Assembly: GCA_002717365.1 (NCBI GenBank)
Contig: PBDJ01000027.1
Coordinates: 1-64,000, forward strand
Direction: 5' to 3'
Source: Acidimicrobiaceae bacterium
Lineage (GTDB): Bacteria > Actinomycetota > Acidimicrobiia > Acidimicrobiales > MedAcidi-G1
Length of the DNA: 64,000 nucleotides
Position numbers and translations under genes: made by a program. The notes under the pieces are model-generated. The model was not told the origin of the DNA and made no database searches. It was given only the letters and a program-made list of their open reading frames with translations. This document shows positions 28,691-52,170 of the stretch, piece by piece (position 1 is the first letter of the stretch; the number at the start of each line of letters is the position of its first letter).

Positions 28691-28700
28691 GGATATTGCC

Positions 28701-33472: not shown

Positions 33473-34330
33473 TTAGCATGCAATCGAAGGTAGGACCACC
33501 CCTTGCGGCTCTCGATAACTCCCGCGACTCATCAGGGAGAGCGGTTGCTCTATTCGAAGTCCTTGCTTGAGGCACCACATCAATAGATCAGTAGATCTCA
33601 GAGGTAAGAGAAACCCTGAGCCGCGAATACGGTCGGCCGCTGAGACCAAGGCCATGACAGCGGCAGAGTCTCGCCCCACCGTATGTCCCCCAAAGCCAAT
33701 ATTGGTCGTATACGCCGAAACCCGGCCACCGAGCTCAGCCAAGAAAGCGTTACCTGCTGAGATTGCATCTTGCAATTCCCAATTTCTACTAAAGCCTTGC
33801 GTGAACTGGCAAAGTTCCCTGCACTCTTCTAGATCTGAGATCTCCACTGCACGAACATGATGATCCGGCACGTCCAACCTGCGCAATGTTCCCCTCATCG
33901 CGGCCAAGGGTTCACGAATTTCAAAGCCCTGTTTGAGGTACAAGGCCATGGACCTTCCGTGGTAAGCGGCTTGCACTAGACGAACACCGGAAGCCTTGCG
34001 CCGATCCGAACGTTCAAGGGCGTCCCCCAGAAGCAGCTGGCCTACCCCCTCATTCTGCGCCTGCCGCAGAACTGTGATCGGACCTAGTCCAACTATCTCC
34101 GCGCGCTCATCTAAAAAGTTGCTGCCAACAATTTCTCCGTTGCGTTCAGCGACTGCACAATAGAATCCCTCGTGCTCCAGCATCGCCGAAACGACTCGAA
34201 CTGTGGCTTCCACCGAGGGGAAGTCGGGTTGAAAGTTGTGCTCTGTGGCTATATCCCAGAATGCATCAAAACATATCTGGGCACATTCTTGAGTATCTTC
34301 AATTCGACCTTCACGAATGACTAGGTCCAT
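33473..34330 (-). CDS. GNAT-family N-acetyltransferase, probably two GNAT-like halves
   Basis: MDLVIREGRIEDTQECAQICFDAFWDIA..., VLRQAQNEGVGQLLLGDALERSDRR. Confidence 0.75.
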   Translation of the reverse strand: MDLVIREGRIEDTQECAQICFDAFWDIATEHNFQPDFPSVEATVRVVSAMLEHEGFYCAVAERNGEIVGSNFLDERAEIVGLGPITVLRQAQNEGVGQLLLGDALERSDRRKASGVRLVQAAYHGRSMALYLKQGFEIREPLAAMRGTLRRLDVPDHHVRAVEISDLEECRELCQFTQGFSRNWELQDAISAGNAFLAELGGRVSAYTTNIGFGGHTVGRDSAAVMALVSAADRIRGSGFLLPLRSTDLLMWCLKQGLRIEQPLSLMSRGSYREPQGVVLPSIAC

Positions 34331-34409: not shown

Positions 34410-35201
34410 CTAAGACAAAGCGTCAAGATCTGCATGCCCATAAGAGAATCCGCCGTTAGGGCTAATAAGCTCACCCGTCATATACTCCGCTTCGTTGGAA
34501 GCAAGGTAGACCGCGAGAGCACCAACTTCCTCGGGACGACCAAATCTTCCAACTGCAATACATTCTTGCAAAAGTCGTAATTCTTCAGCAGGAATCATCG
34601 CACTCAATGGGGTATCGAAGTAGCCGGGGCGAATGGCATTTACCGTCACCCCGCGAGAAGCAACTTCGCGAGACAGCGATCGAACTAGGCCATCAATGCC
34701 GCCCTTGGCTGCTCCATAGTGGGTTTCGTATGCCACACCCGTTGTCGAAACAATTGACGAAATGCAGATGACCCGACCAAACCCTCTTTCGAGCATTCCA
34801 GGCAAGCCATAGCGGGTACAAAGAAATGTGCCATCAAGATGAATCCCTAGCATCTCTCGCCACTCGGCAAATGTCATCTCTTCGAATCGAACAATGGTTG
34901 CGATTCCAGCGACATTCACCACGATATCAATATCACCGACTCCGGCCTTTGCCGCTTCATATGCCGCTTGGACATTTGCTTCGTCGGTCACATCAAGCTG
35001 AATCGCCTCAAATCTCTGATCTGGGAATCTGGAAGAAAGATTATCTGCAGTAACAGCCGCAGCATCTTCGAGAATATCTGTTACGGCAACGGAAGCTCCT
35101 TGACCAGCAAGACTTTCAGCGATGGCCGACCCCAGGCCACCACCTGCGCCTGTAACCAATGCATTTCGTCCGGTGAGATCAAACATCATCTTCCTTCCCA
35201 C
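34410..35201 (-). CDS. SDR family oxidoreductase
   Basis: ALVTGAGGGLGSAIAESLAGQGASVAVTD, YGAAKGGIDGLVRSLSREVASRGVTVNAIRPG. Confidence 0.93.
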   Translation of the reverse strand: MGRKMMFDLTGRNALVTGAGGGLGSAIAESLAGQGASVAVTDILEDAAAVTADNLSSRFPDQRFEAIQLDVTDEANVQAAYEAAKAGVGDIDIVVNVAGIATIVRFEEMTFAEWREMLGIHLDGTFLCTRYGLPGMLERGFGRVICISSIVSTTGVAYETHYGAAKGGIDGLVRSLSREVASRGVTVNAIRPGYFDTPLSAMIPAEELRLLQECIAVGRFGRPEEVGALAVYLASNEAEYMTGELISPNGGFSYGHADLDALS

Positions 35202-35359: not shown

Positions 35360-36820
35360 TCAGCTTGACGGATTCAGAACGTAGCCACTTCGAGTCCCCA
35401 GGTGCCGTCCATTGCTCACAACTAGATCTCCGTTGACGACCACATGAAGAACGCCTGTCGAAAGCAGCCTTGGATTTTCGTAGGTCGCTCTGTCGATAAT
35501 TATCTTTGGATCAAAGAGGCTCAAATCCGCGTACCAACCCTTCCGAATAGCGCCTCGACGATCAAGGCGGAACTTCTCTGCTGGCAGTGAAGTCATTTTT
35601 CGAATGGCCTCTGGAAGAGTAAGTACCCCTGACTCCCTGACATAGCGTCCAAGGACGCGCGGGAAGGTCCCGTAGAGTCGAGGGTGGGGTCGTCCATCTG
35701 CCGATGGAAGTCCGTCGGAACCAATCATTGCGACTTCATGGCGCATTGCTGCACAAACATCTACTTCGGTCATGCCGTGGCGTACAACCACTGTTCCAGG
35801 GTCAGTTTCCGTGATACGGAAGGCCATCTCATCAAACGTCAACCCATTGAGTTCGCCTAAGTCGAGCAGGGAACGACCTACGGAATCTGGATAGGTCGAC
35901 GAGGCAACGACAACAGACGCGGCCTCATCAGATCCGATTCCTCCCTTAACGACCGTATGGAGAAGCGTGCTAGAGGCCGTGTAGGGATAGACGTCAGTAG
36001 TTACATCAAGACTCTCTAGTCGTGCAGAATCAATGGCCGAGATCGATTGTTTGACCTTTCCCCAGTTTGCCTGGCCGAGCGCTTTGTGGTGGGAGATATG
36101 GAGACCGCAGCCACCCTTCATGCCAATTTCGATGGCTTCCTCCACGGCTTCTACCAACCCACTGCCTTCATCCCGAATATGACTCACATAAAGGCCCTTG
36201 TCCTCAGAAACCGGCTCAATGGCACGTATTAACTCTTCAGTTGACGAATACCGGCCAGGCTCATAGGTCAAACCAGTGGATACCCCCAGAGCACCTGCGT
36301 TCATTCCTGCAGAGAGGTGTCGGTGAATCTCTCTGAACTCTTTCCGCGTCGGCCTCTCTTTGCTCGACCCGAGCACCGCTCGCCTAACAGCCCCATAGCC
36401 AATAAGGATCGCCACATTGCAGGAAGGATGGGCACTATCGATACGTGCCCTGTACTCACCTACATCCTTCCAACTCGGAGGCCTCTTCGATCCAAGGATC
36501 CCGCTCTCCAACCATCGGTCATTAATCGGTGAGCGAGGGACTGTAGCCCACCCACAATTTCCAATAATGTCAGTTGTAACTCCCTGCGAAATCTTGTGGT
36601 TCATCTCTGGATCTTCCAGAACTGCCAAGTCATCATGGGAATGGACGTCGACAAAACCTGGGGCAACAATCAGATTTGTTGCATCAATTTCTATTCGTCC
36701 TACGTCCTGACATGGCCCAATCGCGTCGATTAGGTCACCATCGATCGCAATGTCCGTCTTGATGCCTGCCGAGCCGCTGCCGTCAATGACTACGCCATTT
36801 CGTATTACAAGGTCATGCAT
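35360..36820 (-). CDS. N-acyl-D-amino-acid deacylase/D-aminoacylase family amidohydrolase
   Basis: DLVIRNGVVIDGSGSAGIKTDIAIDGDLIDAIG, VAPGFVDVHSHDDLAVLEDPEMNHKISQGVTTDIIGNCGW. Confidence 0.87.
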   Translation of the reverse strand: MHDLVIRNGVVIDGSGSAGIKTDIAIDGDLIDAIGPCQDVGRIEIDATNLIVAPGFVDVHSHDDLAVLEDPEMNHKISQGVTTDIIGNCGWATVPRSPINDRWLESGILGSKRPPSWKDVGEYRARIDSAHPSCNVAILIGYGAVRRAVLGSSKERPTRKEFREIHRHLSAGMNAGALGVSTGLTYEPGRYSSTEELIRAIEPVSEDKGLYVSHIRDEGSGLVEAVEEAIEIGMKGGCGLHISHHKALGQANWGKVKQSISAIDSARLESLDVTTDVYPYTASSTLLHTVVKGGIGSDEAASVVVASSTYPDSVGRSLLDLGELNGLTFDEMAFRITETDPGTVVVRHGMTEVDVCAAMRHEVAMIGSDGLPSADGRPHPRLYGTFPRVLGRYVRESGVLTLPEAIRKMTSLPAEKFRLDRRGAIRKGWYADLSLFDPKIIIDRATYENPRLLSTGVLHVVVNGDLVVSNGRHLGTRSGYVLNPSS

Positions 36821-36870: not shown

Positions 36871-38253
36871 CTACGAGTCACGAACTTGCACTAATGCAGT
36901 CTTGTAGTCAGTCCGGGGAATTGTTCCGGGCGCAACTACTGTCAAGGCCACCCGGATACCCAGCCTTTCCCGAACCGTCGCTTCGACTCGGCCTGAAAGA
37001 GCTTGGACCATAGTCTCTTCTAAGTCCATGTTGGCTTCGACCTCTAGGGGAATTGGGTGATCAAATTTCACCTGACCTACCTCTTCCGCCCAGATCCTCA
37101 TGTGCGGCGAGAGATGGTCGGAGTGCTCGTCAAGAATGACGTCACGAATAGCCGATGGGAAAACATTCATCGCCTTGTAGATCAACATGTCGTCGCTTCG
37201 ACCAATACAACGAATCTTCGGTGAGGTTCTGCTACATGCACAGGAAGTTTCAGTAACTACAACAATGTCTCCTGACCTAAACCGAAGAACTGGAGTCGCT
37301 TCACGGCTAAACGTTGTATAGAGAACTTCTCCGGTTGCGCCCTCAGCCCAAGGGACCTGGTCTTGAGTGTCCGGATCAATCAATTCAATAGCCACGTGTC
37401 GTTGTGCACAAAAATGCATTCCGTTGCCCTGTCCACACTCAGCCCACATTCCAGCCATTACATCGCTCAAACCCATTGCCTCTCGGAGATGCGTTACACC
37501 CCAGGCCTCACTGATCTGTGATCGGATCTCCGGCTGGCCCATCCCGGGTTCCCCACCACCAATCAACTTCTCCAAACCCAGTGAACTGGGCGGATAGCCC
37601 ATCACTTCACGACAGTGCTCCGCCAAGTAGACCTCGAATGAGACGGTCGCAGTCAGTGCCGTTGCTTGGAGAGTCTTGATCGTCTCCAATGTTCGTTCCG
37701 TCGACATTCCACCCGCCCAAACAACGGTCGCACCAAGTTTTCTGAGGCCATCTGCGTATGGGAGCCCACCCCCCACCATCGGTAATCGAGTGAGGTGGGC
37801 TATGACATCTGTTGGCCTAATCCCAGCAGTGAAGAACATGTTCGCGATTCCGTCATTCCACTTCGCATGGTCACTTGCAGTTAGTGCGTAATGGACTGAC
37901 CTTCCCGAGGTTCCGGAAGAGGAAACCGTTTGAACAATCTCGGACGTTGGCATCCCTTGGATCGTTCCAAATGGTTCACCATCCGATGGGCTCTCCTGAG
38001 CAACCCGAAGATCCGACTTAGTTGTGAGGGGCAGTGATTCAAGAGCTTCGATGGTTGGCACAGACTTTGGAGAGGCACCCAACTTTTTGGCGTAGAACAG
38101 TGAACGACGGGCGAGTCCGGATACGAAACTCTTCACTTGAGTTCCCTGCCACGCTTCGACTTCGACCCAGGGAAGCGGGTCCAATTCGTTGTCCCACAAC
38201 TCCTCAGTCTGGCTAGTCACTCCCCTACCGCCCTTCCGCTCTGGCTTGGTCAA
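36871..38253 (-). CDS. phenylacetate-CoA ligase-like AMP-dependent synthetase (copy 1)
   Basis: TVSSSGTSGRSVHYALT, GGGEPGMGQPEIRSQISEAWG, GRSDDMLIYKAMNVFPSAI. Confidence 0.85.
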   Translation of the reverse strand: MTKPERKGGRGVTSQTEELWDNELDPLPWVEVEAWQGTQVKSFVSGLARRSLFYAKKLGASPKSVPTIEALESLPLTTKSDLRVAQESPSDGEPFGTIQGMPTSEIVQTVSSSGTSGRSVHYALTASDHAKWNDGIANMFFTAGIRPTDVIAHLTRLPMVGGGLPYADGLRKLGATVVWAGGMSTERTLETIKTLQATALTATVSFEVYLAEHCREVMGYPPSSLGLEKLIGGGEPGMGQPEIRSQISEAWGVTHLREAMGLSDVMAGMWAECGQGNGMHFCAQRHVAIELIDPDTQDQVPWAEGATGEVLYTTFSREATPVLRFRSGDIVVVTETSCACSRTSPKIRCIGRSDDMLIYKAMNVFPSAIRDVILDEHSDHLSPHMRIWAEEVGQVKFDHPIPLEVEANMDLEETMVQALSGRVEATVRERLGIRVALTVVAPGTIPRTDYKTALVQVRDS

Positions 38254-39016
38254 ATACCTCGCCCAACCTAGACACGTCTACTCCAACTCCTACTTCTTCT
38301 CTGGTCGTAACTAGCCATGGACGCTCTATTTCGTCCGTTGGATTTGTCGGTAATCCTTCCAGAGTCTCATTTGCCAAACACCGCACTCCAGGCTCTATGT
38401 AGTTCGGTGAGACATGGACAATCGCTGCTCCGAAATAGTTGATAATTGGCCTTACACGGGTAGGAATTTCCCGAGCGGTACCAACGAACATGAAGAGATC
38501 TGGTTCAAGGGTTCCGAAAGCTCGGATCACATGAATCAGGACTTCCTGCACCCATTCTGGTTGCTCCTGAAGTGCCAGTTGGTCTTGAAGGGCCTGATCG
38601 TCCGGAACAACGATCGCAACACCAGCTCGGTCATCTAGAACTGATTTGATCCGTTTACAAGCCTCTAGATATACATCCAGAACCGGGGTGTTAACGACTG
38701 CTTCAGGCGACGGCAATTCGACAAGGGGCATCCCTTCAGTATTCTGGCTCAAGGCTTCAAGTGGTCCTAGTCCAGGCGAAGAGGCTTGGCGACAACCCAC
38801 GGCAACCTTGCAGCCATCCCCCAGCGTGACTGCATCAAGGCCATAGAGATTCTGGGCATTCCGCAAGGAACGAGCAACTGCTTCTGGATCAGTCCAAGCT
38901 GCAAAATCTGAAATCTGCTCAATAGCAGCTGCATGGCGGTGAATCCTTGGGACTATGGCTATCTCGCTACCATCCCGTGACTGCAACGCACTGTTAAGGG
39001 AGTGTTTGCCCATCAA
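38225..39016 (-). CDS. hypothetical protein; faint uroporphyrinogen-decarboxylase-like character; possible accessory subunit of the carboxylase
   Basis: 263-aa ORF overlapping the CoA ligase start by 29 nt and 22 nt from the HyuB-like gene; AQNLYGLDAVTLGDGCKVAVGC. Confidence 0.6.
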   Translation of the reverse strand: MMGKHSLNSALQSRDGSEIAIVPRIHRHAAAIEQISDFAAWTDPEAVARSLRNAQNLYGLDAVTLGDGCKVAVGCRQASSPGLGPLEALSQNTEGMPLVELPSPEAVVNTPVLDVYLEACKRIKSVLDDRAGVAIVVPDDQALQDQLALQEQPEWVQEVLIHVIRAFGTLEPDLFMFVGTAREIPTRVRPIINYFGAAIVHVSPNYIEPGVRCLANETLEGLPTNPTDEIERPWLVTTREEVGVGVDVSRLGEVFDQARAEGR

Positions 39017-39038
39017 CGATCCTGCTGACGTTGCCGAC

Positions 39039-41159
39039 TTAGATTCTTACTATTGGTGTTTCGGCAACCCCTTCGGGCCAAGAACCAAAATACTTTAACG
39101 CTTCCGGATTGGGTGAAAGTTTGGACCATTCAGAAATAAACTCGTCCCACGGCTTACCGCGCTTGAGTCGAGTTTGACGAGCTGAGTCCCGTGCATGCTC
39201 TGTAGCAGTCTCATCTAGGATGCGGGTGTCTTCCTCGTACCGAATTTGGTAAACCTCCTTTGCAGTCCAACTCGAGATTTGGCCGTTCTTCAGGTCGTCG
39301 AGAACTAGGCCGGGGTCGCGTTCGAGGACGTCTCCGTAGCCTCCTCCGCCTGCAGCAAGTTGCACAATCAGGTCTCCGCTGTAGCCAATTCGCGTCAACC
39401 TCGTTAGATGTTCAAGTAGATACTCACCCTGAAGCGCCCGATCGGCAGCGACGGAGACGGCATCTTCGGGAAGGTCTTCATCCCCTCGATTCATCTTCTC
39501 CCACAGATCCGTTCCACTTACCCAGATTCCGGGGCTAGCACTCGATGGGTAGCCGCCAAAGAGTCCCACAGCAACAGAAATGTGGGTGCTCTTCCCGATC
39601 GAACTCCAGAACATTGTTGGGACGTGATGAGGGGCAATGGCTGTCTCGGTGCCAAGTCCTCCCTGCCACTTGCCGAAACCTCCGGAATCTCGTCGTAAGT
39701 GGTAAAAGAGGCGCAGAAACGGATATTCATCCTCATAGAACTCCGCATCGGGTGCCCGGCCAGCATGAGCCCAGGGGAACCCATAGGCATTTACGCCATC
39801 CATGTCGGGCCTAGCTCCTTGGCCCTCTGTATTCAAAGTACATCCATCAAGGTCGGCATAGGGCATTTCGTGTTGGCTGGTTCCCGAAAAAACGATCTCG
39901 CTGCCCATGTTCCCATTAGGTGCACCAATCTTGTCTCGGTCTTCGCTATCGAACATCATCTTTGATAGCGCCAAAGTGACCGGAGTCATGACAATGCAGC
40001 ACAGCGGAGGGCTGTTACTTATAGCTGCATTTGGTGAGGCGTTGAGGACGCTGCCTTCAGGAATATCCCAATCAAACAGAGCGAGGGTTCCATTTGATGC
40101 AGGAAGGTCATTAAATGGATAGGCAAATAGGAAGATTGCGGCATGAGCAGCAGCTATATGGGGATAGGCATTGTAGGAAGAGTCGTTCTCCGGAGACGTG
40201 CCACTAAAGTCCATGTGAATCTTGTCATGGGTTTTGGTGGCAGTAAGCATGCCCCGGACTAGGGCGGGTTCTCTCCCGATTGTGTCGGCAAACGCGACAG
40301 CGCGATAGGTGCCGTCATTCCACCGAGATACACGCCGGCGAGCACTTTCCTCAGCTTCCACGACCAACTTTCGCAATAAGCCCCGAACGAAATCATTGCC
40401 TTTCGCTGCGGCTAGTTCTTGGACCCGTACTCGCAATCGGTCAGCACCGGTAACTCGGGCTCGAGTATCGATCTCCTGCATTCGAGGAGAGCGGTCGATG
40501 AAGTTGACCATCATGTCTAGGAGGTCGCGCTTGATGCGATAGTCCTGCCCAATCTTTATCGGAGTCAACTTCATTCCCTCATCCGACCGACTCCGAGCAA
40601 GGATTGGCATTCCCCCAGGCTCCACTGCTCCAGTTTCTGGCTGGTGAGCCAACGCTGCAGTCCAGGCAATTAGTACGCCTTCATGAAACACTGGCATAAA
40701 AGCCATTTGGTCTGGATTGTGAATACCTCCATACCGTGCTTCATTTGTATAAAAAATGTCTCCTGCTTCTACTCGGACTGAGGAGTCGGAGTAGTACTTA
40801 TGCATGACATATTTGACCGGCAGGCAGCCGGTTACACAGTGGAGATAGGTCCCAGCTGAAGCATTAGCAAGGTCACCATTTGCGGTATAGATTGCAACAA
40901 TCAAATCTCCAGCTGTTAACAAGTTTGTTACGCCACTACGAGTAAAGATTTCACGCGCTTCGTCCAAGATATTTTTTAGTTTTTCATCATAGATTTCGTA
41001 GTCTCCAGGTTCTAAACCATCGACCCAGCTTCTCTCAGTCTCGCCAACAGGTTCTGGCTTCAGCCACTGAACCATGGTGGCTGGCGAAATCTCAATGGGC
41101 GTTACACGCATGTATTCAGGGATTTCAGATTCATCTATGAAAGCGTGATCTAAGGACAT
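39039..41159 (-). CDS. hydantoinase B/oxoprolinase-like, acetone/acetophenone carboxylase-type subunit
   Basis: DEAREIFTRSGVTNLLTAGDLIVAIYTANGDLANAS..., GSEIVFSGTSQHEMPYADLDGC...; HyuB-like with associated gamma subunit gene. Confidence 0.82.
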   Translation of the reverse strand: MSLDHAFIDESEIPEYMRVTPIEISPATMVQWLKPEPVGETERSWVDGLEPGDYEIYDEKLKNILDEAREIFTRSGVTNLLTAGDLIVAIYTANGDLANASAGTYLHCVTGCLPVKYVMHKYYSDSSVRVEAGDIFYTNEARYGGIHNPDQMAFMPVFHEGVLIAWTAALAHQPETGAVEPGGMPILARSRSDEGMKLTPIKIGQDYRIKRDLLDMMVNFIDRSPRMQEIDTRARVTGADRLRVRVQELAAAKGNDFVRGLLRKLVVEAEESARRRVSRWNDGTYRAVAFADTIGREPALVRGMLTATKTHDKIHMDFSGTSPENDSSYNAYPHIAAAHAAIFLFAYPFNDLPASNGTLALFDWDIPEGSVLNASPNAAISNSPPLCCIVMTPVTLALSKMMFDSEDRDKIGAPNGNMGSEIVFSGTSQHEMPYADLDGCTLNTEGQGARPDMDGVNAYGFPWAHAGRAPDAEFYEDEYPFLRLFYHLRRDSGGFGKWQGGLGTETAIAPHHVPTMFWSSIGKSTHISVAVGLFGGYPSSASPGIWVSGTDLWEKMNRGDEDLPEDAVSVAADRALQGEYLLEHLTRLTRIGYSGDLIVQLAAGGGGYGDVLERDPGLVLDDLKNGQISSWTAKEVYQIRYEEDTRILDETATEHARDSARQTRLKRGKPWDEFISEWSKLSPNPEALKYFGSWPEGVAETPIVRI

Positions 41160-41169
41160 GGTATTGGTC

Positions 41170-43323
41170 TCACATTTGTTGAATAATTAAGTTGAAATTG
41201 TTGTCAACTGTAAGTTGAAATCCGGGATCCAGTACGGTAGTTGTGTACTCTGCCTCTATTACCGCTGGCCCATTGATCTCGTGGCCAGGTTTAAGGAGCC
41301 CTTGGTCAAATATAGGTGTGTCCAGAAAATCTGCCGCTTCGGACCAGTAAACCGCTCGTTCTCCAGTTAACGCGCCGTCAGCCTTTGTTCCGTCAGGTTC
41401 CGACGCTTCTAGTTCCCATCCCGGTTCTGGCATGGCTGCCGTAAGTACAAAGTTATGAATCTCTACCCCACCTTCCGGGTATACATTCACTGGGCTAAAG
41501 AATGCCGCATAATCACCCTCAAATGCGGAATAGATAGCCATTACGTCATCTGTACTATTTATTCGCAATAGTGGTGACTCACTACGGTGACTGTGGATCT
41601 GGCCGCCGTACTTGACGTCCAATTCAAGTCTGAGATGAGCCAAGTCAGGGTCGTACCCTTCACCGCTCAAGTCTCTTCTGGCTCGACCTTCCAGCTCCTC
41701 GACGATCGCATTGAATACTTCAAAGTCCGCTGTAGGGGCCTTCGTGGCAGCTTTCAGCAATTCGACACGTCTCGAGGTTTCATAGATATGCGCAACCGGC
41801 ATTGTGGAAGAGCCCCACGCACAAAAAACAGGTGAGAACGGACAAACGATGATCCTTTGGATCCCAAGACGGGAGCCATACCCGACACAGTGGGCAGCAC
41901 CTGCTCCGCCATACGCGAGAAGAACAAAGTCCTTCGGATCAAAACCGCGAAGGAACGTCTCTCGAGCAATCACGTCAGCCATGTTCGAGTCGACCGTCCG
42001 TTTGATGCGTGCTGCGGCCTCTTCGACAGAAACTCCAAGTGGTTCCGCGATTCTGGACTTGATTGCCGCATAAGCAAGATCTCGATCCAGCATTGCCTTG
42101 CCTGAGAAATAACTTTCTGGACTGATGTAGTTCAAAACAACATCAGCATCGGTAACAGTGGGCTCAGTGCCACCTAGTCCGAGAGCAGCCGGTCCCGGTA
42201 GCGAACCGGCGCTTTGGGGTCCCACCTCAATCCTGTTCCCAACCGCTTCATTAAGCCAGGCAATAGAACCGCCACCAGCACCGATTGACTTAACCTCCAG
42301 CATGCTTTGATCAACCCAATAGCGGTCAATGATCGGCCGGAACTGGTAGGCCCGGGCACTTCCATCACTGATAATCCCTACTTCGAAACTCGTTCCTCCC
42401 ATATCGGTAACGATCACGTTTCCGTCGCCTTGACGTTTCCCGAGTGCTGCTCCTCCGATCAATCCCGCGACCGGGCCACCATTGAAGGTTGCTGCAGCCG
42501 AGGTGCGGTAAACCTCAGCCATCCCACCCGAATTGTGAACCAGCATGATTCCTTTGGGGTAGCCATAGCTCCGAAGTTCATCTGCCATTCCGGCAAGCTC
42601 TTCCCACATTGACTGATGCAAGTAGGCATTAAGGATGGAAGTATTTGTTCTCGTATATTCAAGACGCTTCGGCACTACCTCTGACGAAAGCATTATCGGC
42701 ATTGATCCGAGATATTCGTCCGGAAATTCAGATTCAATCAGTTCTCGAATCCGAATTTCGTGAGAAGGATTTAGATAGGAAAACAAAAGCGATATAACAA
42801 ATCCTCGAGCGCCACGATCCACTACCTTGTGAAGCTCTGTAAGGAATTGGTCTTCATCTAGTGGTCGAACGACCTGTCCAAAACTATCAATTCTCTCCTT
42901 TGCTCCAATTATCATTCCTGCTTCAACTAGCGGATCAGGCTTCGTGATCCGAGCAACGTTGCGAATCTCTCGTACGACTGCAGCGTCCATCCAAGCAGCC
43001 CCTCGAGCAATGTTGAGAACGTCACCAAATCCAGCCGTTGTCACCAGACAGAGCTTGGGCCCGGACCTCTGCAGGAGAGTGTTCATGGCTACCGTAGTTG
43101 AATAACGAATAGTGCTCGTTTCAAGAAGGAGTTCGCTTGTCGTCAACCCAAATCGTTTTGCCGCCTCCTCAAGACCTTGCCTGAAGCCCACCGCAAGACG
43201 AAATCCAGTTGTCGGCGTCTTGACGGCAGTCGACTCGCCCGTGCCACGACGGACGAAACAGTCAGTGAACGTTCCGCCAATATCGATGTCAATAACGGTT
43301 CCGTGATCAGATTCTGTTGTCAT
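41170..43323 (-). CDS. hydantoinase A/oxoprolinase-like carboxylase subunit (alpha-type, copy 1)
   Basis: IDIDIGGTFTDCFVRRG, VIVTDMGGTSFEVGII, FVLLAYGGAGAAHCVGYGSRLG. Confidence 0.87.
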   Translation of the reverse strand: MTTESDHGTVIDIDIGGTFTDCFVRRGTGESTAVKTPTTGFRLAVGFRQGLEEAAKRFGLTTSELLLETSTIRYSTTVAMNTLLQRSGPKLCLVTTAGFGDVLNIARGAAWMDAAVVREIRNVARITKPDPLVEAGMIIGAKERIDSFGQVVRPLDEDQFLTELHKVVDRGARGFVISLLFSYLNPSHEIRIRELIESEFPDEYLGSMPIMLSSEVVPKRLEYTRTNTSILNAYLHQSMWEELAGMADELRSYGYPKGIMLVHNSGGMAEVYRTSAAATFNGGPVAGLIGGAALGKRQGDGNVIVTDMGGTSFEVGIISDGSARAYQFRPIIDRYWVDQSMLEVKSIGAGGGSIAWLNEAVGNRIEVGPQSAGSLPGPAALGLGGTEPTVTDADVVLNYISPESYFSGKAMLDRDLAYAAIKSRIAEPLGVSVEEAAARIKRTVDSNMADVIARETFLRGFDPKDFVLLAYGGAGAAHCVGYGSRLGIQRIIVCPFSPVFCAWGSSTMPVAHIYETSRRVELLKAATKAPTADFEVFNAIVEELEGRARRDLSGEGYDPDLAHLRLELDVKYGGQIHSHRSESPLLRINSTDDVMAIYSAFEGDYAAFFSPVNVYPEGGVEIHNFVLTAAMPEPGWELEASEPDGTKADGALTGERAVYWSEAADFLDTPIFDQGLLKPGHEINGPAVIEAEYTTTVLDPGFQLTVDNNFNLIIQQM

Positions 43324-43673
43324 TGTTCGGAGTCCTTTGAAGACATGTCTACAGAGCCCTCATCGGCGAACGTATTTGGGTCTAGTTCAATGTCGTGCGT
43401 TATTGGATGCCCTGGGGGGAGCATTTCGACTTCCAGTAGTGCTCCACACCCCGGACAGTAGAACTCGACAATTCTCGACCACGTGTCGTCATACGAGAAG
43501 TTCAGAACTCCTTCGATGAGCGGTTCCCAGATCTCCTTTGGGTCACGCTGGGCAACTAGACACCCCTTTTTGTAGTTTTCCGTAACCGAGCCAAGCGAGT
43601 ATTCGCAGCGGCGACACTCCCACTCCAGCAATTCCGTGTCTACCAATAGAGATTCCGTGATCGCCCGCTTCAT
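43320..43673 (-). CDS. acetone carboxylase gamma subunit-like small zinc-ribbon protein
   Basis: CRRCEYSLG...WEPLIEGVLNFSYDDTWSRIVEFYCPGCGALLEVEMLPPGHPITHDIELD; ATGA-type overlaps with both HyuA-like neighbours. Confidence 0.82.
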   Translation of the reverse strand: MKRAITESLLVDTELLEWECRRCEYSLGSVTENYKKGCLVAQRDPKEIWEPLIEGVLNFSYDDTWSRIVEFYCPGCGALLEVEMLPPGHPITHDIELDPNTFADEGSVDMSSKDSEQ

Positions 43674-45610
43674 GAGTTCTCCCCGCCCTCTCCCTGACCG
43701 AACACTGCTTCCCCGTTGTCGCCAATGGTGAGGGTTACCAACGGAGGAACGACCAGTGTGCTGTCCACACTTTCAAGGATCGCTGGCCCCCGGACCTCGG
43801 TGCCTCGGGGTGCCTGATCCCAGTCGAAGACAGGGGTCGAGGACTCTCCTGTCTTCCACTTGATGATTCGATTCGATTCGAGGGAAAGGCTTCCACTAGG
43901 ACTTGAAGGAAGCGGCAAGGCAGAAATGGACTCTGTCGCTCGTAGTCTCACCAATTGGGCACCATTTGAAACCAATTCACTTACTGTCTCGTCTGAGATT
44001 TCTTCGGTCACATCGCCGAATTGGACGTCTTGAATGTCTCCAGGATGTCCTGGTATCTCAAATTCCGCTTCAAGAGAGAGACTGACTCGTTCTAGATCTA
44101 TGGCCTCACCCTGCATGTCGCGGTAAGCGCGGCGGCGAAGATCTTGCAATTCAATGCCAAGCTGAGGGTCTGGGCGTGCTTCGTAGGAATGCGATATTGC
44201 AAGGGTTGATAATCCAAATGCACTAAATACAGGGTTTGAAGCAAATACGTACGTGGAACCCACATTGGTCATCAATGCAATCTGGTGGGCTAAGTACCCC
44301 CCGGCGCCCCCTATGACAAATATTGCACAGTCTTCTGGCTTCTTCTCGGTCTTTAGCATAATTTCAAGCAGCGCTTGAGCTATGTGGTTAGAGGCTAGAT
44401 CGATAACTTCCCAAGCAGCTTCAGAAATAGAAAGACCTAGCGGCTCTGCAATCTTCTCTTGAATTATCTGATTAGCAGCTTCAAGGTCAAGCTTTTTACG
44501 ACCACCCAAGAAATGAAGGGGGTCCAAAATCCCTAGACAAGCGATTGCGTCGGTGACGGTCGCCTGATCCCCACCTAGACCAAAGGCAGCGGGCCCTGGC
44601 TGAGCCCCGGCACTTTGCGGCCCAACTGTTAGCACGCCATCGATCACCTCGGCGATTGAGCCTCCGCCAATCCCGATCGAATCGATGTCCACCGCTGGTA
44701 GCGCTACCGGCACATTTGCTATTGAGGGTTGGACACGGTAGGTCCAGCGAGAATCACTGAGGGTGCTGATGTCTGAACTGGTTCCACCTACGTCCAAAGT
44801 AATTACATGACTCAGACCAAGTTTTTCAGAATACGCCGAGGCGCCAGCAACCCCACCGGCTGGACCTGATCCCCAGGTCCGGAGAGCGGTGGTCTTTGCC
44901 ACTCGAGAAGTCCCAGCATCTGCCGTGGCGACCAAAAGCGGATATCGGTAGCCATCTAGACGAAGTTGATCTTCTACTCGATAAAGCACCCGACTCATGT
45001 CGTGATGCAAGTACGCATTAACTACTGCCGTATTGACACGTACCGCATCACTGTTGCTAAGGGTCACCTGATTAGAACAGAGGACCGGAACTGCTCCTAG
45101 ATAGTGCCGTGGAAAGTCGTTCGTGATTGCCTCGCGAACAGCTCTTTCCCGCTCCGGGAGACCTTCTCCCGAATCTAGAGCCACAACTAGAATCCGTGCA
45201 CCTCGTTCGAGCAACTGATGGACGGCTTCAGTTACATCTCTAGCGTCAACTTCTCCAGAAGTCTCATCAAGACAAACGTTAAGTTCTTCTTGGAGTGGTA
45301 AATCTTCTGGGAGCACATTGAGTACTGACTTGGCGAGTCGCGAACCAATCAGAAGACCCACCTTTGGCCCTGACCGATTGATTAGGGCATTAGTGCCAAT
45401 CGTTGTGGAGAATCGGACTGTCTCTGTAGTTTGAAGCAGCTCGGATCGAGTAAGCCCCAAATAGGCAGCCCCTTGATCAATGCAAGCAAGAATCCCAGCC
45501 GTTAGGTCATGTGGTGTCGTCTCCACCTTGGTCCTAATCGCGATCGTCTGATCGGTAATGAACCCGTCGGTAAACGTTCCACCAGTGTCAATGTTTATCG
45601 TGTAGCTCAT
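43670..45610 (-). CDS. hydantoinase A/oxoprolinase-like carboxylase subunit (alpha'-type, copy 2)
   Basis: INIDTGGTFTDGFITDQ, VITLDVGGTSSDISTLSDS, CAIFVIGGAGGYLAHQIA. Confidence 0.87.
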   Translation of the reverse strand: MSYTINIDTGGTFTDGFITDQTIAIRTKVETTPHDLTAGILACIDQGAAYLGLTRSELLQTTETVRFSTTIGTNALINRSGPKVGLLIGSRLAKSVLNVLPEDLPLQEELNVCLDETSGEVDARDVTEAVHQLLERGARILVVALDSGEGLPERERAVREAITNDFPRHYLGAVPVLCSNQVTLSNSDAVRVNTAVVNAYLHHDMSRVLYRVEDQLRLDGYRYPLLVATADAGTSRVAKTTALRTWGSGPAGGVAGASAYSEKLGLSHVITLDVGGTSSDISTLSDSRWTYRVQPSIANVPVALPAVDIDSIGIGGGSIAEVIDGVLTVGPQSAGAQPGPAAFGLGGDQATVTDAIACLGILDPLHFLGGRKKLDLEAANQIIQEKIAEPLGLSISEAAWEVIDLASNHIAQALLEIMLKTEKKPEDCAIFVIGGAGGYLAHQIALMTNVGSTYVFASNPVFSAFGLSTLAISHSYEARPDPQLGIELQDLRRRAYRDMQGEAIDLERVSLSLEAEFEIPGHPGDIQDVQFGDVTEEISDETVSELVSNGAQLVRLRATESISALPLPSSPSGSLSLESNRIIKWKTGESSTPVFDWDQAPRGTEVRGPAILESVDSTLVVPPLVTLTIGDNGEAVFGQGEGGENS

Positions 45611-45620
45611 CTTGAGGTCA

Positions 45621-47009
45621 CTATTCGCTATTCCGCGCTATTCCGATCTGGGAGGAAAACGAGTCTCTTCTGCGGTTGTCAGTCCACCTAGGTACCTTTA
45701 CAAATCCTTCTGGGATCTCGAGTGATAGTTCACCAGGGCTGAGGGTTTGAACCTCAGCTCTCAGGCCAATAGATCCACTGATCGCCTCCCGGACTTCACG
45801 AGGGATGGCTTCACTGCGGTTTGGTGGACACTCGACTCGAACTCGAATGGTTTCTTGTCCATTCGCAACTTCGACGCTACCCCGATAATTCATCACTCCT
45901 GGCACACCGAAAATTGCAGCATCGAATTGTGCTGGCCACACGTTCATTCCCTTAATTTTCAACATGTCGTCGTAGCGTTGAACTCCCCCTGCACGAATGC
46001 CTGCCAAGGGCCGATCACACGAGCAAGAGCCCGGAGCGATCCATTGGACGCGGTCACGGGTCCTATAGCGAAGGAGAGGAGACGCTTCTGCAATTAGAGG
46101 GGTGACGACCAGTTCCCCTAGTTCCCCGTCTTGAACATCTCCGCCGGTTGAAGGGTCAATTACCTCGCAGTAGGCAGTCTCTGGTGGAAAATGCAAGACG
46201 CCCAATCGGCCGTCTTGGAGAACGCCGCCTGGGCACGTCCACGCTACTGCTCGTTCCGTACACCCGTATTGCTCATAGAGCGTCGCATTCCAGAGAAGCT
46301 CCATCTCTCTTGCCCAGGCTTCCTCATAAGACTCACCAGCGACAATAAGAACTTCCACGCCAAACTGTTTTGGGTCGAGCCCTGCTGCGGTCGCGGCTAC
46401 CGCCATCCGTTGGACATAGGAAGGTGTTCCAACCACGACATCTGCTCCAAATCGCCGGAGGAAAGCTATCTTGCGCTCCGTCGGGTACGAGCCGACCGAA
46501 AAGACGTTGGCCCCTAGCAGCCGAAGACCTCCGTAGTACCAAAGTCCTGCAGCGGTTGTGCCCACCGGCAGGGTTAGGAGTACTCGTGTGCCAGGTCGAA
46601 TTCCGCTCCACCAAAATCCCGTTGCTTCCATTTGGATAGCAGCAGCCTCATCGACTTCGTTCATTACATAAACCTCGCGGCCCTGCCCAGAGGTTCCGCT
46701 GGTTTCGACGAGATTCCGGATGTCTGCAGGCTCACAAGTAGTACGGGACCCGTAGGGAGGATTTTCTTCGCAGTCCACTACTACTTGATCTTTGGTCGTC
46801 GTAGGAAGACAACGAAATGCTTCGGCTGATCGCTCAGTCGGCAAGCTCCCTAGATGGCCCTTATAAAAAGGATTCTTTTCCGAAAGATCTTCAGCGATCC
46901 GCCACGCACTCGCAAGTTGCCACTCCCTGAGTTCCACCGGGCACTCGGGAGTTTCTGGATGCCAACTGCCTAGGTAGGCGTTATGCGGAACGGCTGTAGA
47001 GGTTTGCAC
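45621..47009 (-). CDS. phenylacetate-CoA ligase-like AMP-dependent synthetase (copy 2)
   Basis: LVETSGTSGQGREVYVM, YEQYGCTERAVAWTCP, RYDDMLKIKGMNVWPAQFD. Confidence 0.87.
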   Translation of the reverse strand: MQTSTAVPHNAYLGSWHPETPECPVELREWQLASAWRIAEDLSEKNPFYKGHLGSLPTERSAEAFRCLPTTTKDQVVVDCEENPPYGSRTTCEPADIRNLVETSGTSGQGREVYVMNEVDEAAAIQMEATGFWWSGIRPGTRVLLTLPVGTTAAGLWYYGGLRLLGANVFSVGSYPTERKIAFLRRFGADVVVGTPSYVQRMAVAATAAGLDPKQFGVEVLIVAGESYEEAWAREMELLWNATLYEQYGCTERAVAWTCPGGVLQDGRLGVLHFPPETAYCEVIDPSTGGDVQDGELGELVVTPLIAEASPLLRYRTRDRVQWIAPGSCSCDRPLAGIRAGGVQRYDDMLKIKGMNVWPAQFDAAIFGVPGVMNYRGSVEVANGQETIRVRVECPPNRSEAIPREVREAISGSIGLRAEVQTLSPGELSLEIPEGFVKVPRWTDNRRRDSFSSQIGIARNSE

Positions 47010-47023
47010 GAATGAGGCTACTT

Positions 47024-47947
47024 CTAATCGATCCCGAGAGCCTGCTGCGCGGCACCACCAAGGAACAGGTCGATCTCTTCTCTCGTAAAGTCAACCCCAG
47101 AAGTTTCGTCCCCGGGAAGGGCCTGAATGATCTCTACCCAGTTAGCATGGTTAACCTTGGTAACGGTCCGAAGAGCAGGCCAATCACTCCCAAAAAATAC
47201 TTTTCCACTACCTGCTAAGGAAAACAGGGCTCGAAGTTTTCTCGGGAAATCCTCCGGTTCTTGAAGGTACTTCGACTGCCAATAAGCGGTATCGACATAA
47301 ACATTGGGGTGGTGCCAGGCCAAACTGGCGGCCTCTTCCCACCATGCCATCCCCGCATGGGCAAGAACGAACGTGACTTCCGGGAAGTCATTCGAAGGTT
47401 GATCGACGTAGATGGGGCGAGTGGGTTCCGAACTCGCAGGCGCAATCTCCTGTCCCGTATGAACTACAACAGGAAGATTCAGTTCAGCGCACTTCTCATA
47501 TACCCGATAGCAGGCCCTGTCCCCAGGGTTGACTCCAGTACACCAGAGCTTGAACCCTCTTAGGCCCCATTCGTTGACGGCTCTTTCTACGAATTTCGCC
47601 GAATGTGGTCGACGCGGATCGATTCCACCATAAAGGATAAGTCTGTCGGAATATTTTTGGACAGCTTGATGGTAGATTTCATATCGTTTTTCCAGAGATA
47701 TTTCATCATCTACGCCAGCATACAATGCAAAGTCAATTGCTATAACTACCGCTTTATCGATCCCCGCTTCGTCCATGTCTGAAATCAAGAGGTCACCACA
47801 TTCATCAAACCAAGTTTCTTCTACTCGACCTCTGACAAACTCGGGCGGACGGCTCGAAATTGCACATCCATAGTCTACGAATGCGTTGATCCATGCTCCT
47901 GGTGTAAGCCGCGGGCCATACAAGTGCGCATGCGAGTCAATAATCAT
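47024..47947 (-). CDS. amidohydrolase family protein (Amidohydro_2)
   Basis: MIIDSHAHLYGPRL, VVVHTGQEIAP, VLAHAGMAWWEEAASLAWHHPNVYVDTAYW, VFFGSDWPALR. Confidence 0.88.
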   Translation of the reverse strand: MIIDSHAHLYGPRLTPGAWINAFVDYGCAISSRPPEFVRGRVEETWFDECGDLLISDMDEAGIDKAVVIAIDFALYAGVDDEISLEKRYEIYHQAVQKYSDRLILYGGIDPRRPHSAKFVERAVNEWGLRGFKLWCTGVNPGDRACYRVYEKCAELNLPVVVHTGQEIAPASSEPTRPIYVDQPSNDFPEVTFVLAHAGMAWWEEAASLAWHHPNVYVDTAYWQSKYLQEPEDFPRKLRALFSLAGSGKVFFGSDWPALRTVTKVNHANWVEIIQALPGDETSGVDFTREEIDLFLGGAAQQALGID

Positions 47948-47996: not shown

Positions 47997-49007
47997 CTAC
48001 TTTGTAGTATTCATATTCTCAATTAACGGCATTAGCTCTTTGCCAAATCTACTTATTCGTTCCATGCGACCACCGGGAAGAAGGGTGAATGTCAGTTGGT
48101 CGATTTTCAAATCAAGAAGTGGTCTTATCTTTTCAGCGCACCGTTCAGGAGGTCCAGCTACAGCAATGAAATCAACAAACTCGTCGCTAATCGCTGTTGC
48201 GTGCTTAGCGTGACGAGAAAGGTGTTCAAAAAAGTCATACTCCTGAAATGCGCGTTCGAATTCTTCGCGAAATGGCTCTACGGATCTAGGCAACTCTTTC
48301 CATCGCGCCAAAAATCTTGCCTGACTAGTTGCCCACGGCCTGACGTCCTGAATGGCCCTTTCCGTGTCATCGGCGAGTGAGATGCCAAACCAAAGATCTA
48401 CAAAAACGTCATCTAGGCTGCGGCCTGCGGCCTCTGCCCCTCGACGAACATGATCGATCTGCCATTCCGTTATTCCGGGTTCTGCCCCACCCATCACGAC
48501 AACTCCGTCTGCTACCGCTCCTGCCAGTTGGAGCATGCGCGGCTGGCTAGCAGAGATCCAGATAGGAACCGTTTCCCCAGCAGTCAATAGCCGAGCTGGA
48601 GTCTCGTTGATCAGCACCTCATCACCCGTAAAAAGTGCGCGCATGCATTCCACGTCTGCTCTCAACTGCTTAACGGTTGCCGGTCGAGCACCAATCGTGT
48701 GCACTGCGCTATCACCCGTTCCAATCCCCAGAACCGCACGGCCCTTACCAATTTCATTCAACGCAGCCATGGTGTTCGCTAAGACTGTCGGATGCCGGGT
48801 GACCGGGTTCGCTACCCCGGGTCCCAAAAAGATCTTCTTGGTCTCCCTTGCAGCCAGGGCCAGCGCCATATAGGCGTCTTTGGAAATCATTTGGGACTCA
48901 CCGAGCCACGCCATGTCAAACCCGACTTCTTCCGCGTGGGAGGCGATGTCCGGAAACCGGAGAATCGGCTCTCGAGGGCTGAGGACCATCATGAATCCAA
49001 TGCGCAT
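47997..49007 (-). CDS. LLM-class (F420-dependent-like) oxidoreductase
   Basis: MRIGFMMVLSPREPILRFPDIASHAEEVGFDMAWLGESQ, RAVLGIGTGDSAVHTIG. Confidence 0.87.
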   Translation of the reverse strand: MRIGFMMVLSPREPILRFPDIASHAEEVGFDMAWLGESQMISKDAYMALALAARETKKIFLGPGVANPVTRHPTVLANTMAALNEIGKGRAVLGIGTGDSAVHTIGARPATVKQLRADVECMRALFTGDEVLINETPARLLTAGETVPIWISASQPRMLQLAGAVADGVVVMGGAEPGITEWQIDHVRRGAEAAGRSLDDVFVDLWFGISLADDTERAIQDVRPWATSQARFLARWKELPRSVEPFREEFERAFQEYDFFEHLSRHAKHATAISDEFVDFIAVAGPPERCAEKIRPLLDLKIDQLTFTLLPGGRMERISRFGKELMPLIENMNTTK

Positions 49008-49040: not shown

Positions 49041-50162
49041 TCACCTCGAAAAAGAATGCATATTTATACCACCCACGCCAGAGTTGTGACACACCCCTAT
49101 CTTCGGCGCACCCTGAACCTGACGCGGTCCGGCTTCCTGCCGCAACTGGCGCAGTATCTCAATTATTTGCGCTAAACCTGTCGCACCCATGGGGTGACCG
49201 CGACTGATTAGGCCTCCATCGGTATTGATTGGGACCGGACCATCAATTCCGGTCTTACCCTCTGATACAAATCTTGCTCCACTGCCCTCTGGGGCTAACC
49301 CCATAGCCTCCATACGAATAATCTCCGCAGGAGCAAATGCGTCATGCAACTGAACGACGTCGATGTCCTCCGGCCCTATTGCTGCTCGCTCATATAGTTC
49401 ATTACTTAACCGAGTCACACATGGCTCCAATTCATCAGAGTCATCGTCACCATAGGAATCTGTTCCGCAAGCCCATCCAGTGACATATACCTCTCCATGA
49501 GTATTTCTATATTGCCGAGCCTTAGTGGCCGAAGAAAGAATGACAGCTGACGCCCCGTCGCTGGTAGGTGAACATTGGAGCAGTGTTATCGGAGTAGCAA
49601 TCATTCGAGACTCCATTACCTCCTGAATAGTCACCTCCTTTCGGTACTGCGCATATGGATTAAGCTTTGCATTTGCATGTGACTTGACCGATACAGCAGC
49701 GAATTGTTCCGCTGTGGCGCCATATCGGTCCATATATATCTGTGATTTAAGTCCATAGTTAGCCGGTGCCAGCGATTGGCCCATCCTAAGGTCATAGGAA
49801 TCTGATGCCGCAATCTCTACTGGCCCGCGTTCCATCTTCTCAAATCCAACAACTAGTACCAGGTCGTAAATACCTTGCTCAATGGCCCAAACTGCTTGAC
49901 GAAATGCTGTTGAACTGCTTGAGCATGCCTGTTCAATGTTGATAATCGGTATACCAGTTTCACCAAACTGAGTAATTACCTCAAGGCCAGTACCCATTGG
50001 CGCATATACACGTCCGCAGAATGCTGCCTGAATTGCAGAAAATTGAACACCAGCATCGTCAAGGCAGTTTGAGATTGCTACTCGCGTAAGTTCTCTAAAT
50101 GATTTCTCTGGATATCTCCCAAATGGATGTAATCCACCACCCAATATCACTACCTTACTCAT
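49041..50162 (-). CDS. thiolase family protein (acetyl-CoA acetyltransferase/SCP2-thiolase-like)
   Basis: INIEQACSSSSTAFRQAVWAIEQGIYDLVLVVGFEKM, VQLHDAFAPAEIIRMEAMGL, NTDGGLISRGHPMGATGLAQI. Confidence 0.9.
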   Translation of the reverse strand: MSKVVILGGGLHPFGRYPEKSFRELTRVAISNCLDDAGVQFSAIQAAFCGRVYAPMGTGLEVITQFGETGIPIINIEQACSSSSTAFRQAVWAIEQGIYDLVLVVGFEKMERGPVEIAASDSYDLRMGQSLAPANYGLKSQIYMDRYGATAEQFAAVSVKSHANAKLNPYAQYRKEVTIQEVMESRMIATPITLLQCSPTSDGASAVILSSATKARQYRNTHGEVYVTGWACGTDSYGDDDSDELEPCVTRLSNELYERAAIGPEDIDVVQLHDAFAPAEIIRMEAMGLAPEGSGARFVSEGKTGIDGPVPINTDGGLISRGHPMGATGLAQIIEILRQLRQEAGPRQVQGAPKIGVCHNSGVGGINMHSFSR

Positions 50163-50568
50163 TTGTATTCCTAGAGCATTTCAGAGCAAACACGAGTCCG
50201 AGACGCGTACCACTACCAGTCTCTAATTTCCGTGTAGTCAGCGAGACCTCACTGCCAATTGACAATTCTAACTCCTCAGTCGACACACAACGTATGCAAT
50301 TTCCATCATTTAGCCTGATCTCAGCTAGTACATAGGGCGGATCGATCAGACTTTGGGCAATCTCTTGATGCACTACTGTGAACGACTCAATCACACCATT
50401 GTGATCAGTAATAGTAGTCTCCGACATGTCTTCTGAACATCCTGGGCAATTTTCTCTTGCTGGGTGCGACCGAACACCACAGTGGTTACAAATACTTCCC
50501 CGTATTTCTAACAACCCTTCAGGGGTAACCAAGAAACGGCCTGAATCTAAGGGTTCTATTGGATCCAC
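50155..50568 (-). CDS. DUF35/OB-fold zinc-ribbon protein, thiolase partner
   Basis: GSICNHCGVRSHPARENCPGCSEDM; GTG start 50568 chosen to avoid the upstream overlap; overlaps thiolase start. Confidence 0.82.
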   Translation of the reverse strand: MDPIEPLDSGRFLVTPEGLLEIRGSICNHCGVRSHPARENCPGCSEDMSETTITDHNGVIESFTVVHQEIAQSLIDPPYVLAEIRLNDGNCIRCVSTEELELSIGSEVSLTTRKLETGSGTRLGLVFALKCSRNTNE

Positions 50569-50575
50569 AACAGGA

Positions 50576-51559
50576 TCACCCTTCTTGTGACCGGAATTTG
50601 TATGCCCCAAGTGGCAATTCAAGAACCGAGATTAGGCCTGTTCGTGCTGACTTTATGACCTTTGCGGCCTGAAGCACTGCCGCTGCCGTAGCATCATCGC
50701 CCGCCACCCCGCCAGCGATGTGCAGATCAATCTCAGGCAGACCCTCGATCTTGATCGAGTCGAAACACTCATCGACTGAAGAATGTGCCACAAAGCGGAG
50801 GGCAAGCGTCCGACCGTCAGCAGTGCTTGCCTTTAGGGTCTCGATTAGTCCATTTACCCTCTCGGCTGTCTCTGCGTGTACTGGCTCGATATGGTGATCC
50901 CACTTCTCGAGGTCCCATCCGAGCCCAGTAGCAATTAACCGTGCGCTCTCCTCAAGCCCCACATGCCCAAAACTTCCTTTACTTGCCAATTCTTCGAATT
51001 CTTTCGTAGACATTCCCATTCCAACCTTAACTTGAAATGGACGTCGTCGACTTGTCGGATCCTGTACACGATCCACCTGAATCGATCGAATGGAATGGCT
51101 TATAGAAGCCATTGCTAACGGAAGACGGTCCATCATGAATCCTGGGTTTACACCAGTCCCAACAACCGTAAGGCCGTGATCCAGAGCGAGACTATCTAGT
51201 GTTTCACTAATAGAAGGATGCCGAACGAACGGAAACGACAACTCTTCGCAGGTGCTTACTACGTTAAGTCCCATAGTAAGAGCTTCCTGTATCTGTGGAG
51301 CGACAGACTCCAGGTAGGACCCGGTGGCATGGAGGACCACATCTGCAGTGTTGCCGGCTTCAAGACTGGAAGAGATAACTATATTGCCGGGTTCAAGACC
51401 ATGATCACTCAATCTCGTCCCGACTAAAGAACTATCGATGTCCACAACCCCAACAACATTCAAGCGAGGGTCTTGATGCGCTGCCTTTAGGATCTCCTTG
51501 CCCATGGGGCCGAGCCCTTGGACGATTACGGGAGTTGGATCGATTTTTTGGTCAAGCAT
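50576..51559 (-). CDS. dihydrodipicolinate reductase-like/2,4-diaminopentanoate dehydrogenase-like NAD(P)-binding protein
   Basis: VIVQGLGPMGKEILKAAHQDPRLNVVGVVDID, NVVSTCEELSFPFVRHP, VVGTGVNPGFMMDRLPLAMA. Confidence 0.8.
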   Translation of the reverse strand: MLDQKIDPTPVIVQGLGPMGKEILKAAHQDPRLNVVGVVDIDSSLVGTRLSDHGLEPGNIVISSSLEAGNTADVVLHATGSYLESVAPQIQEALTMGLNVVSTCEELSFPFVRHPSISETLDSLALDHGLTVVGTGVNPGFMMDRLPLAMASISHSIRSIQVDRVQDPTSRRRPFQVKVGMGMSTKEFEELASKGSFGHVGLEESARLIATGLGWDLEKWDHHIEPVHAETAERVNGLIETLKASTADGRTLALRFVAHSSVDECFDSIKIEGLPEIDLHIAGGVAGDDATAAAVLQAAKVIKSARTGLISVLELPLGAYKFRSQEG

Positions 51560-52149: not shown

Positions 52150-52170
52150 TTCGATTCCCCCCAGCTCCAC
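52150..52170 (+). repeat. attR core: duplicated 3' end of tmRNA, followed by encoded CCA
   Basis: TTCGATTCCCCCCAGCTCCAC identical to 18929-18949, continuing CA (CCA encoded). Confidence 0.92.

Follow-up and report, generated by a model that had tools for sequence, protein, structure and literature searches.

The 64,000-nucleotide stretch analyzed here (hereafter the window; contig PBDJ01000027.1, positions 1 to 64,000, of the Acidimicrobiaceae bacterium assembly GCA_002717365.1) carries on its minus strand, at 45610-36871, a cluster that probably encodes an ATP-dependent ketone carboxylase with five subunits, of the acetophenone carboxylase (Apc) type, together with a CoA ligase. This enzyme would represent a separate clade and would act on a ketone other than acetophenone. 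The genes follow one another in the order alpha', gamma, alpha, beta, epsilon and Bal-type CoA ligase, which exactly matches the apcABCDE-bal order of Aromatoleum (PMC5214803, PMC4729919). All the open reading frames (ORFs) delimited by a first-pass annotation of this DNA were found at their positions, on the minus strand. Its proposal of an alpha/alpha'/beta/gamma composition is borne out, since the best PDB match of each subunit is the corresponding chain of 5l9w, and a fifth subunit, epsilon, can now be added. The top NCBIfam models for alpha', gamma, alpha and beta are the four acetophenone carboxylase subunits (ApcA, ApcB, ApcC and ApcD, respectively), and identities to the 5l9w chains reach 47% for alpha, 40% for beta and 33% for alpha'. 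The small gamma protein (117 amino acids), on whose homology the proposal had been made to depend, is a true carboxylase gamma subunit (Table 1).

The product of 38225-39016 occupies the apcE position in this gene order. Pfam and NCBIfam searches gave no match for this protein. Proteins found at the apcE position of other apc-type loci belong to the uroporphyrinogen decarboxylase (URO-D) superfamily (PF01208, E-values down to 3.4e-35), and the profile of window-like epsilon proteins matched the profile of these apcE-position proteins over 253 columns with a probability of 99.2%. A match was likewise obtained (profile comparison, 99.8%) for the apcE-position proteins located beside the nearest homologues of the genuine acetophenone enzyme. 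The AlphaFold (AF2) model of epsilon has a predicted local distance difference test (pLDDT) score of 92.7 and a predicted template modelling (pTM) score of 0.91; in a fold search of the PDB, ApcE took the top three places (9fou, E-value 1.3e-11, TM score 0.70), with UROD structures coming next, and the family profile of the whole epsilon set matches 9fou at 3e-69. Profile and modelled fold thus identify 38225-39016 as a predicted epsilon (ApcE) homologue, which completes the five-subunit set. We found no literature on epsilon later than 2017 in the library searched.

The position of the two HyuA proteins was examined in a quick maximum likelihood tree of 82 HyuA proteins (short search), with support given by the Shimodaira-Hasegawa-like approximate likelihood ratio test (SH-aLRT). 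The window alpha sits among Apc-type alpha subunits, at a distance from the acetone carboxylase, caprolactamase and N-methylhydantoinase proteins. Its clade (support 100) also includes proteins of a UBA1148 metagenome-assembled genome (MAG; locus L022), a Chloroflexi MAG (L023), L024, Prauserella salsuginis and Quadrisphaera granulorum (L026 and L027); this clade adjoins a protein of NaphS2 (99) and excludes the acetophenone enzymes (100). For alpha', the window protein clusters with its counterparts from L022, L023, L026 and L027 (100), apart from acetone carboxylase and hydantoinase, and the forks separating alpha and alpha' from the acetone carboxylase/hydantoinase branches have SH-aLRT values of 96-99. 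Because some branches are long, the deep order of the tree is uncertain. Neither of the two HyuA proteins falls within the hydantoinase or oxoprolinase groups, a check that the first-pass annotation had called for. On these sequence grounds, the cluster belongs to the Apc-type branch of carboxylases in the sense of PMC5214803, and not to the Acx or Hyd branches, and its enzyme is assigned to a clade separate from acetophenone carboxylase proper. An ordinary acetone carboxylase or hydantoinase/oxoprolinase cluster would share the same Pfam domains, but this explanation is scarcely credible in view of the combination of two HyuA with a short gamma and an epsilon, of the gene order, of the tree placement and of the best PDB matches.

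Motifs and ligands of the known enzymes were then compared. ASKHA ATP motifs were found in both alpha and alpha', and the R/KERiDsxG motif of alpha is present as KERIDSFG. In beta, the metal ligands are Asp85/His147/Asp150/His172, an Asp-His-Asp-His set identical in 75/75 beta rows, and gamma has its zinc cysteines (Cys20/23/73/76). The phosphate-2 motif of alpha, DMGGTSFE, ends in Glu314, at a position where Apc (Asp315), acetone carboxylase and the hydrolases have Asp. This motif was found in 171 HyuA proteins (some loci overlap, and the six Glu counts include L023 twice), of which only the alpha of the window, L022 and L023 and two distant proteins have the final Glu. The Apc Asp315 is equivalent to Asp302 of caprolactamase, which sits beside the gamma-phosphate site and the substrate channel; its counterpart in Apc alpha' is Lys281 (PMC8453981). 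The bicarbonate site proposed for Apc includes, among its polar residues, Glu248 and Lys281 of alpha' (PMC5214803). The window alpha' has Gly247/Asp280 in their place. Glu248 and Lys281 occur together in 22/22 acetophenone-type alpha' rows, the window clade having Gly and Asp. Asp at the Lys281 position is also found in other clusters that keep gamma and epsilon; therefore, it would mark a second type of alpha' rather than a dead subunit.

Across the loci retrieved, Apc-type alpha' subunits fall into two clear-cut types: one with Glu248/Lys281, related to the acetophenone enzymes (22 rows), and one with Asp281 and devoid of Glu248. This split may provide a simple annotation rule against the mislabelling of distant clusters as acetophenone carboxylase.

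These substitutions also bear on the possibility of a repurposed complex, in which alpha' would no longer activate bicarbonate and the enzyme would be an ATP-dependent hydrolase or would catalyse another phosphoryl activation, with a lactam or N-heterocycle, for example, as its substrate. Such a change of role is consistent with the absence of the Glu248/Lys281 pair from alpha', with Glu replacing Asp315 in alpha, with neighbouring genes encoding two amidohydrolase-2 proteins, an amidohydrolase 3 and a molybdenum hydroxylase, and with the hydrolysis of lactams by relatives such as caprolactamase (PMC8453981). However, gamma and epsilon are under purifying selection, hydantoinases have no gamma (PMC5214803), the complex comes with a thiolase and a Bal-type ligase, and the Asp of alpha', being shared with other gamma/epsilon clusters, is no sign of lost function. 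We consider repurposing unlikely.

A genuine acetophenone carboxylase, leading from acetophenone to benzoylacetate, benzoylacetyl-CoA and finally benzoyl-CoA plus acetyl-CoA, would have the same subunits, gene order and Bal-type ligase, and four of the seven residues of the alpha ketone pocket are indeed unchanged (Phe281, Asn282, Pro285, Ile333). The three others are replaced (Leu81 by Met, Gln344 by Glu and Thr345 by Val), alpha' is devoid of Glu248/Lys281, and the window subunits are only 33-47% identical to acetophenone carboxylase compared to 69-85% for the closest apc loci. Furthermore, searches for boxB and for an HGD-D-type benzoyl-CoA reductase subunit gave no matches in three host genomes (the window host, 78% complete, and two of unstated completeness). 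Because of its separate clade (support 100), its altered sites and these negative searches, acetophenone is a very unlikely substrate, and the acetophenone-type chemistry put forward by the first-pass annotation is retained as a model by homology.

The same annotation placed a PaaK-like ligase on each side of the cluster. Both ligases exist, but the second one (36871-38253) lies just outside the interval that it had delimited, and the two differ. LigB is 49% identical to the bal-position ligases of L062 and L070, two bona fide apc loci (alpha 80-85% identical to 5l9w), whereas LigA is only 26-27% identical to the same ligases. Among the scanned loci, a LigA orthologue (63-86% identity) was found only in L022 and L023. 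The two ligases are thus, by these comparisons, not equivalent: LigB is a predicted Bal-type enzyme in the canonical place and LigA an extra one. The thiolase and its DUF35 partner noticed earlier are both present in the block.

For the five-subunit ketone carboxylase that we favour, the analysis establishes the homologies, the epsilon fold, the gene order, the conservation and the island; from these we infer the following reaction, substrate class and order of steps. Alpha would use ATP to phosphorylate the ketone in its enol form, alpha' would spend a second ATP, presumably on bicarbonate, and beta, through its Asp-His-Asp-His metal site, would join the two products into a beta-keto acid. 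Gamma would be a structural zinc subunit and epsilon a detachable barrel of URO-D fold required for turnover. LigB would then form the beta-ketoacyl-CoA, which the thiolase/DUF35 pair would cleave. The other proteins encoded nearby would work before or after these steps: the importer, molybdenum hydroxylase, amidohydrolases, SDR dehydrogenase and LLM oxidoreductase would take up and prepare the compound, and LigA would activate another acid of the route. The whole package came into its present host on an island inserted at the tmRNA gene.

It should be emphasized that several points weigh against this reading. All the NCBIfam equivalog cut-offs are missed (381 bits for a cut-off of 1250 for alpha', 133/250 for gamma, 750/1500 for alpha and 624/1500 for beta), and, given two active-site differences (Glu314 in alpha and Gly247/Asp280 in alpha'), bicarbonate may not be activated as in Apc. 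To our knowledge, there is no biochemistry for members of the Apc branch outside the acetophenone clade. Only one enzyme of this branch had been characterized biochemically when PMC5214803 appeared, and that work urges caution in assigning function to its distant members. A more specific proposal, that the cluster represents a new functional subfamily of Apc-type enzymes with retuned ATP sites (Asp315 of alpha replaced by Glu, Asp-type alpha' devoid of the Glu/Lys pair of the bicarbonate site), acting on a natural, probably more complex ketone and forming the core of a 22-gene catabolic module that has crossed at least three phyla, is tentative, with the chances somewhat short of even.

Comparison with known systems shows what is shared and what is particular to the window. 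ApcABCDE and the benzoylacetate-CoA ligase Bal of Aromatoleum aromaticum (5l9w, 9fou) share with it the five subunits and their gene order, as well as (i) the ASKHA ATP motifs of alpha and alpha', (ii) the Asp-His-Asp-His site of beta, (iii) the zinc cysteines of gamma and (iv) an epsilon of URO-D fold. However, the window epsilon is shorter (263 amino acids) and the window adds the extra ligase, the LLM oxidoreductase, the amidohydrolases, the importer and the molybdenum hydroxylase. Acetone carboxylase AcxABC (5svb, 5m45) has the same HyuA/HyuB/gamma architecture and the same type of chemistry, but has a single HyuA compared to two in the window, no epsilon and a gamma of 168 amino acids, about 50 longer at its N end, and is outside the window clade. 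Caprolactamase, 5-oxoprolinase and N-methylhydantoinase (6yra, 7hk5) share the HyuA and HyuB folds and the ATP-dependent activation of a carbonyl, but have no gamma, alpha' or epsilon and also fall outside the clade. Within the clade, P. salsuginis and Q. granulorum have alpha', gamma, alpha, beta, epsilon and LigB in this order. Unlike the window, they keep Asp in the phosphate-2 motif of alpha and do not have orthologues of LigA, the LLM oxidoreductase, AH2b, the thiolase or the importer alongside. Benzoylsuccinyl-CoA thiolase BbsAB associates a thiolase with a DUF35/OB partner as in the window, whose scores are well under the family cut-offs. This rare type of enzyme is already known, and what is new is a distinct Apc-type clade with its package of partner genes in a mobile catabolic module.

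This module lies on an island of about 33.2 kb, bounded by perfect 21-bp repeats of the end of the transfer-messenger RNA (tmRNA) gene, with an integrase gene beside the tmRNA gene. GC content drops from 0.64 to 0.52 across about 22-52 kb (52% GC for the island, 64% GC for the host), a composition that points to a donor of about 52% GC. No ApcB match was found in the two same-genus and seven same-family genomes sampled. In six genus or family relatives, the tmRNA end matches, no match spans the junction and the right flank is elsewhere or missing. The sharp GC change, the incomplete source MAG (78%) and the failure to find an intact empty site in these relatives could suggest an assembly or binning artefact, joining a 52% GC fragment to a 64% GC contig. 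This is highly improbable since high-GC DNA is present on both sides of the island in a single contig, and since the integrase and the perfect tmRNA-end repeat lie exactly at the borders, as a real integration leaves them. An earlier suggestion of a new variant in an actinobacterial island context is partly upheld: the clade is distinct and the window copy lies on an island, but the module is not specifically actinobacterial, its closest copies being in MAGs of Pseudomonadota and Chloroflexota.

The first of these copies, on a contig of the Proteobacteria UBA1148 MAG (L022/L113), runs colinearly with the payload between 51.6 and 22 kb, with 82% DNA identity in the main block; the contig has 52% GC, as do the other contigs of that genome. 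This contig of 30,207 bp (G396:C99) starts and stops nearly at the ends of the payload (DapB-like gene at 196, end of the flavoprotein gene at about 29,846), hinting that the UBA1148 payload is also mobile or flanked by repeats. The Chloroflexi MAG (L023, L114-L116; 68% GC) has 22 payload genes in one stretch, with 37-79% protein identity and one rearrangement; only a small ORF and the genes for the CocE hydrolase and the DapB-like protein are missing. The ratio of nonsynonymous to synonymous substitutions (dN/dS) relative to UBA1148, the nearest relative of the window, is 0.03-0.15 in 19/19 payload genes tested, indicating purifying selection. The cluster is not a chance assembly, because of these ratios, of a gene order kept in two other phyla and of its tight packing (from 51559 to 35360, neighbouring genes overlap or are 11-51 bp apart). 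An alpha with 76-91% identity was found in one of 393 sampled genomes of the class of the Chloroflexi MAG and in one of 399 of the UBA1148 phylum, both already known. The best reading is that the 22-gene package (importer, molybdenum hydroxylase, amidohydrolases, LLM oxidoreductase, ligases, thiolase/DUF35) moves between phyla. The cluster also points to an undescribed ketone route common to three phyla through gene transfer. As a complete five-subunit relative kept by selection and with a different ATP-site signature, it could serve to test the roles of epsilon and of the Glu/Lys pair of alpha'.

No close relative was found in the plasmid collection, where the best alpha match (47%) is on a Haloterrigena plasmid. 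This plasmid (L117, 4608-12199) carries an archaeal Apc-type cluster with a URO-D-family gene located between alpha' and gamma and not after beta.

The genes of the cluster, of the payload around it and of the island borders are listed in Table 1. The nearest NCBIfam models of the importer are named 'putative B6 ABC transporter', with scores below cut-off. Substrate guesses based on the importer and the molybdenum hydroxylase were dropped, since scores were below cut-off and families are broad.

Table 1. Features of the tmRNA-integrated island and its Apc-type cluster (positions in the window)
Feature	Position	Strand	Evidence or remark
tmRNA gene, 3' end = integration site	18562-18949	+	ARAGORN
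Left att repeat, 21 bp, tmRNA 3' end	18929-18949	+	Perfect copy at 52150-52170
Tyrosine (phage-type) integrase	19024-20256	+	PF00589, 7.5e-16
Molybdenum hydroxylase, three subunits (FAD, 2Fe-2S, Mo-binding)	22082-25715	+	Pfam; kept in UBA1148 and Chloroflexi MAGs
BMP-type ABC importer: binding protein, ATPase, two permeases	25796-30839	+	Pfam
AH2a, amidohydrolase 2	30849-31736	+	PF04909
CocE/NonD-family hydrolase	31791-33446	+	TIGR00976 above cut-off; absent from Chloroflexi copy
GNAT acetyltransferase	33473-34330	-	Pfam
SDR dehydrogenase	34410-35201	-	Pfam
D-aminoacylase-like amidohydrolase 3	35360-36820	-	Pfam; PRK09061 below cut-off
LigB, predicted Bal-type (beta-keto acid) CoA ligase	36871-38253	-	Identity to ligase behind apcE in L062/L070 (49%)
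Epsilon subunit, predicted ApcE homologue, URO-D fold	38225-39016	-	AF2 model, fold search, family profile vs 9fou
Beta subunit, ApcD-like, Hydantoinase_B	39039-41159	-	NF042976, 624 bits; best PDB match 5l9w_A
Alpha subunit, ApcC-like, Hydantoinase_A	41170-43323	-	NF042975, 750 bits; best PDB match 5l9w_B
Gamma subunit, ApcB-like, Acetone_carb_G	43320-43673	-	PF08882, 1.5e-29; best PDB match 5l9w_C, 2.5e-30
Alpha' subunit, ApcA-like, Hydantoinase_A	43670-45610	-	NF042960, 381 bits; best PDB match 5l9w_b
LigA, second PaaK-like CoA ligase	45621-47009	-	Pfam/NCBIfam
AH2b, amidohydrolase 2	47024-47947	-	PF04909
LLM-class, F420-type oxidoreductase	47997-49007	-	PF00296; TIGR03842 below cut-off
SCP2/BbsB-type thiolase	49041-50162	-	Pfam; NF053628 below cut-off
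DUF35/ChsH2-type thiolase partner	50155-50622	-	PF01796/PF12172 just below gathering scores; weak BbsA match
2,4-Diaminopentanoate-dehydrogenase-like (DapB-like) oxidoreductase	50576-51559	-	PF19328; absent from Chloroflexi copy
Right att repeat	52150-52170	+	GC shifts from 0.51 to 0.63 here

Two further observations concern other genes. At another locus (L110, G127:C1), comparable parts are arranged differently: genes for a thiolase, an amidohydrolase and a molybdenum hydroxylase lie close to that of a short acetone-carboxylase-gamma-like protein, and a HyuB-like gene is about 7 kb off. Finally, the window encodes two serine hydrolases of the beta-lactamase family, one within the island by the integrase gene (20268-21512) and the other outside the island (55072-58749), as part of a 1225-amino-acid ORF.

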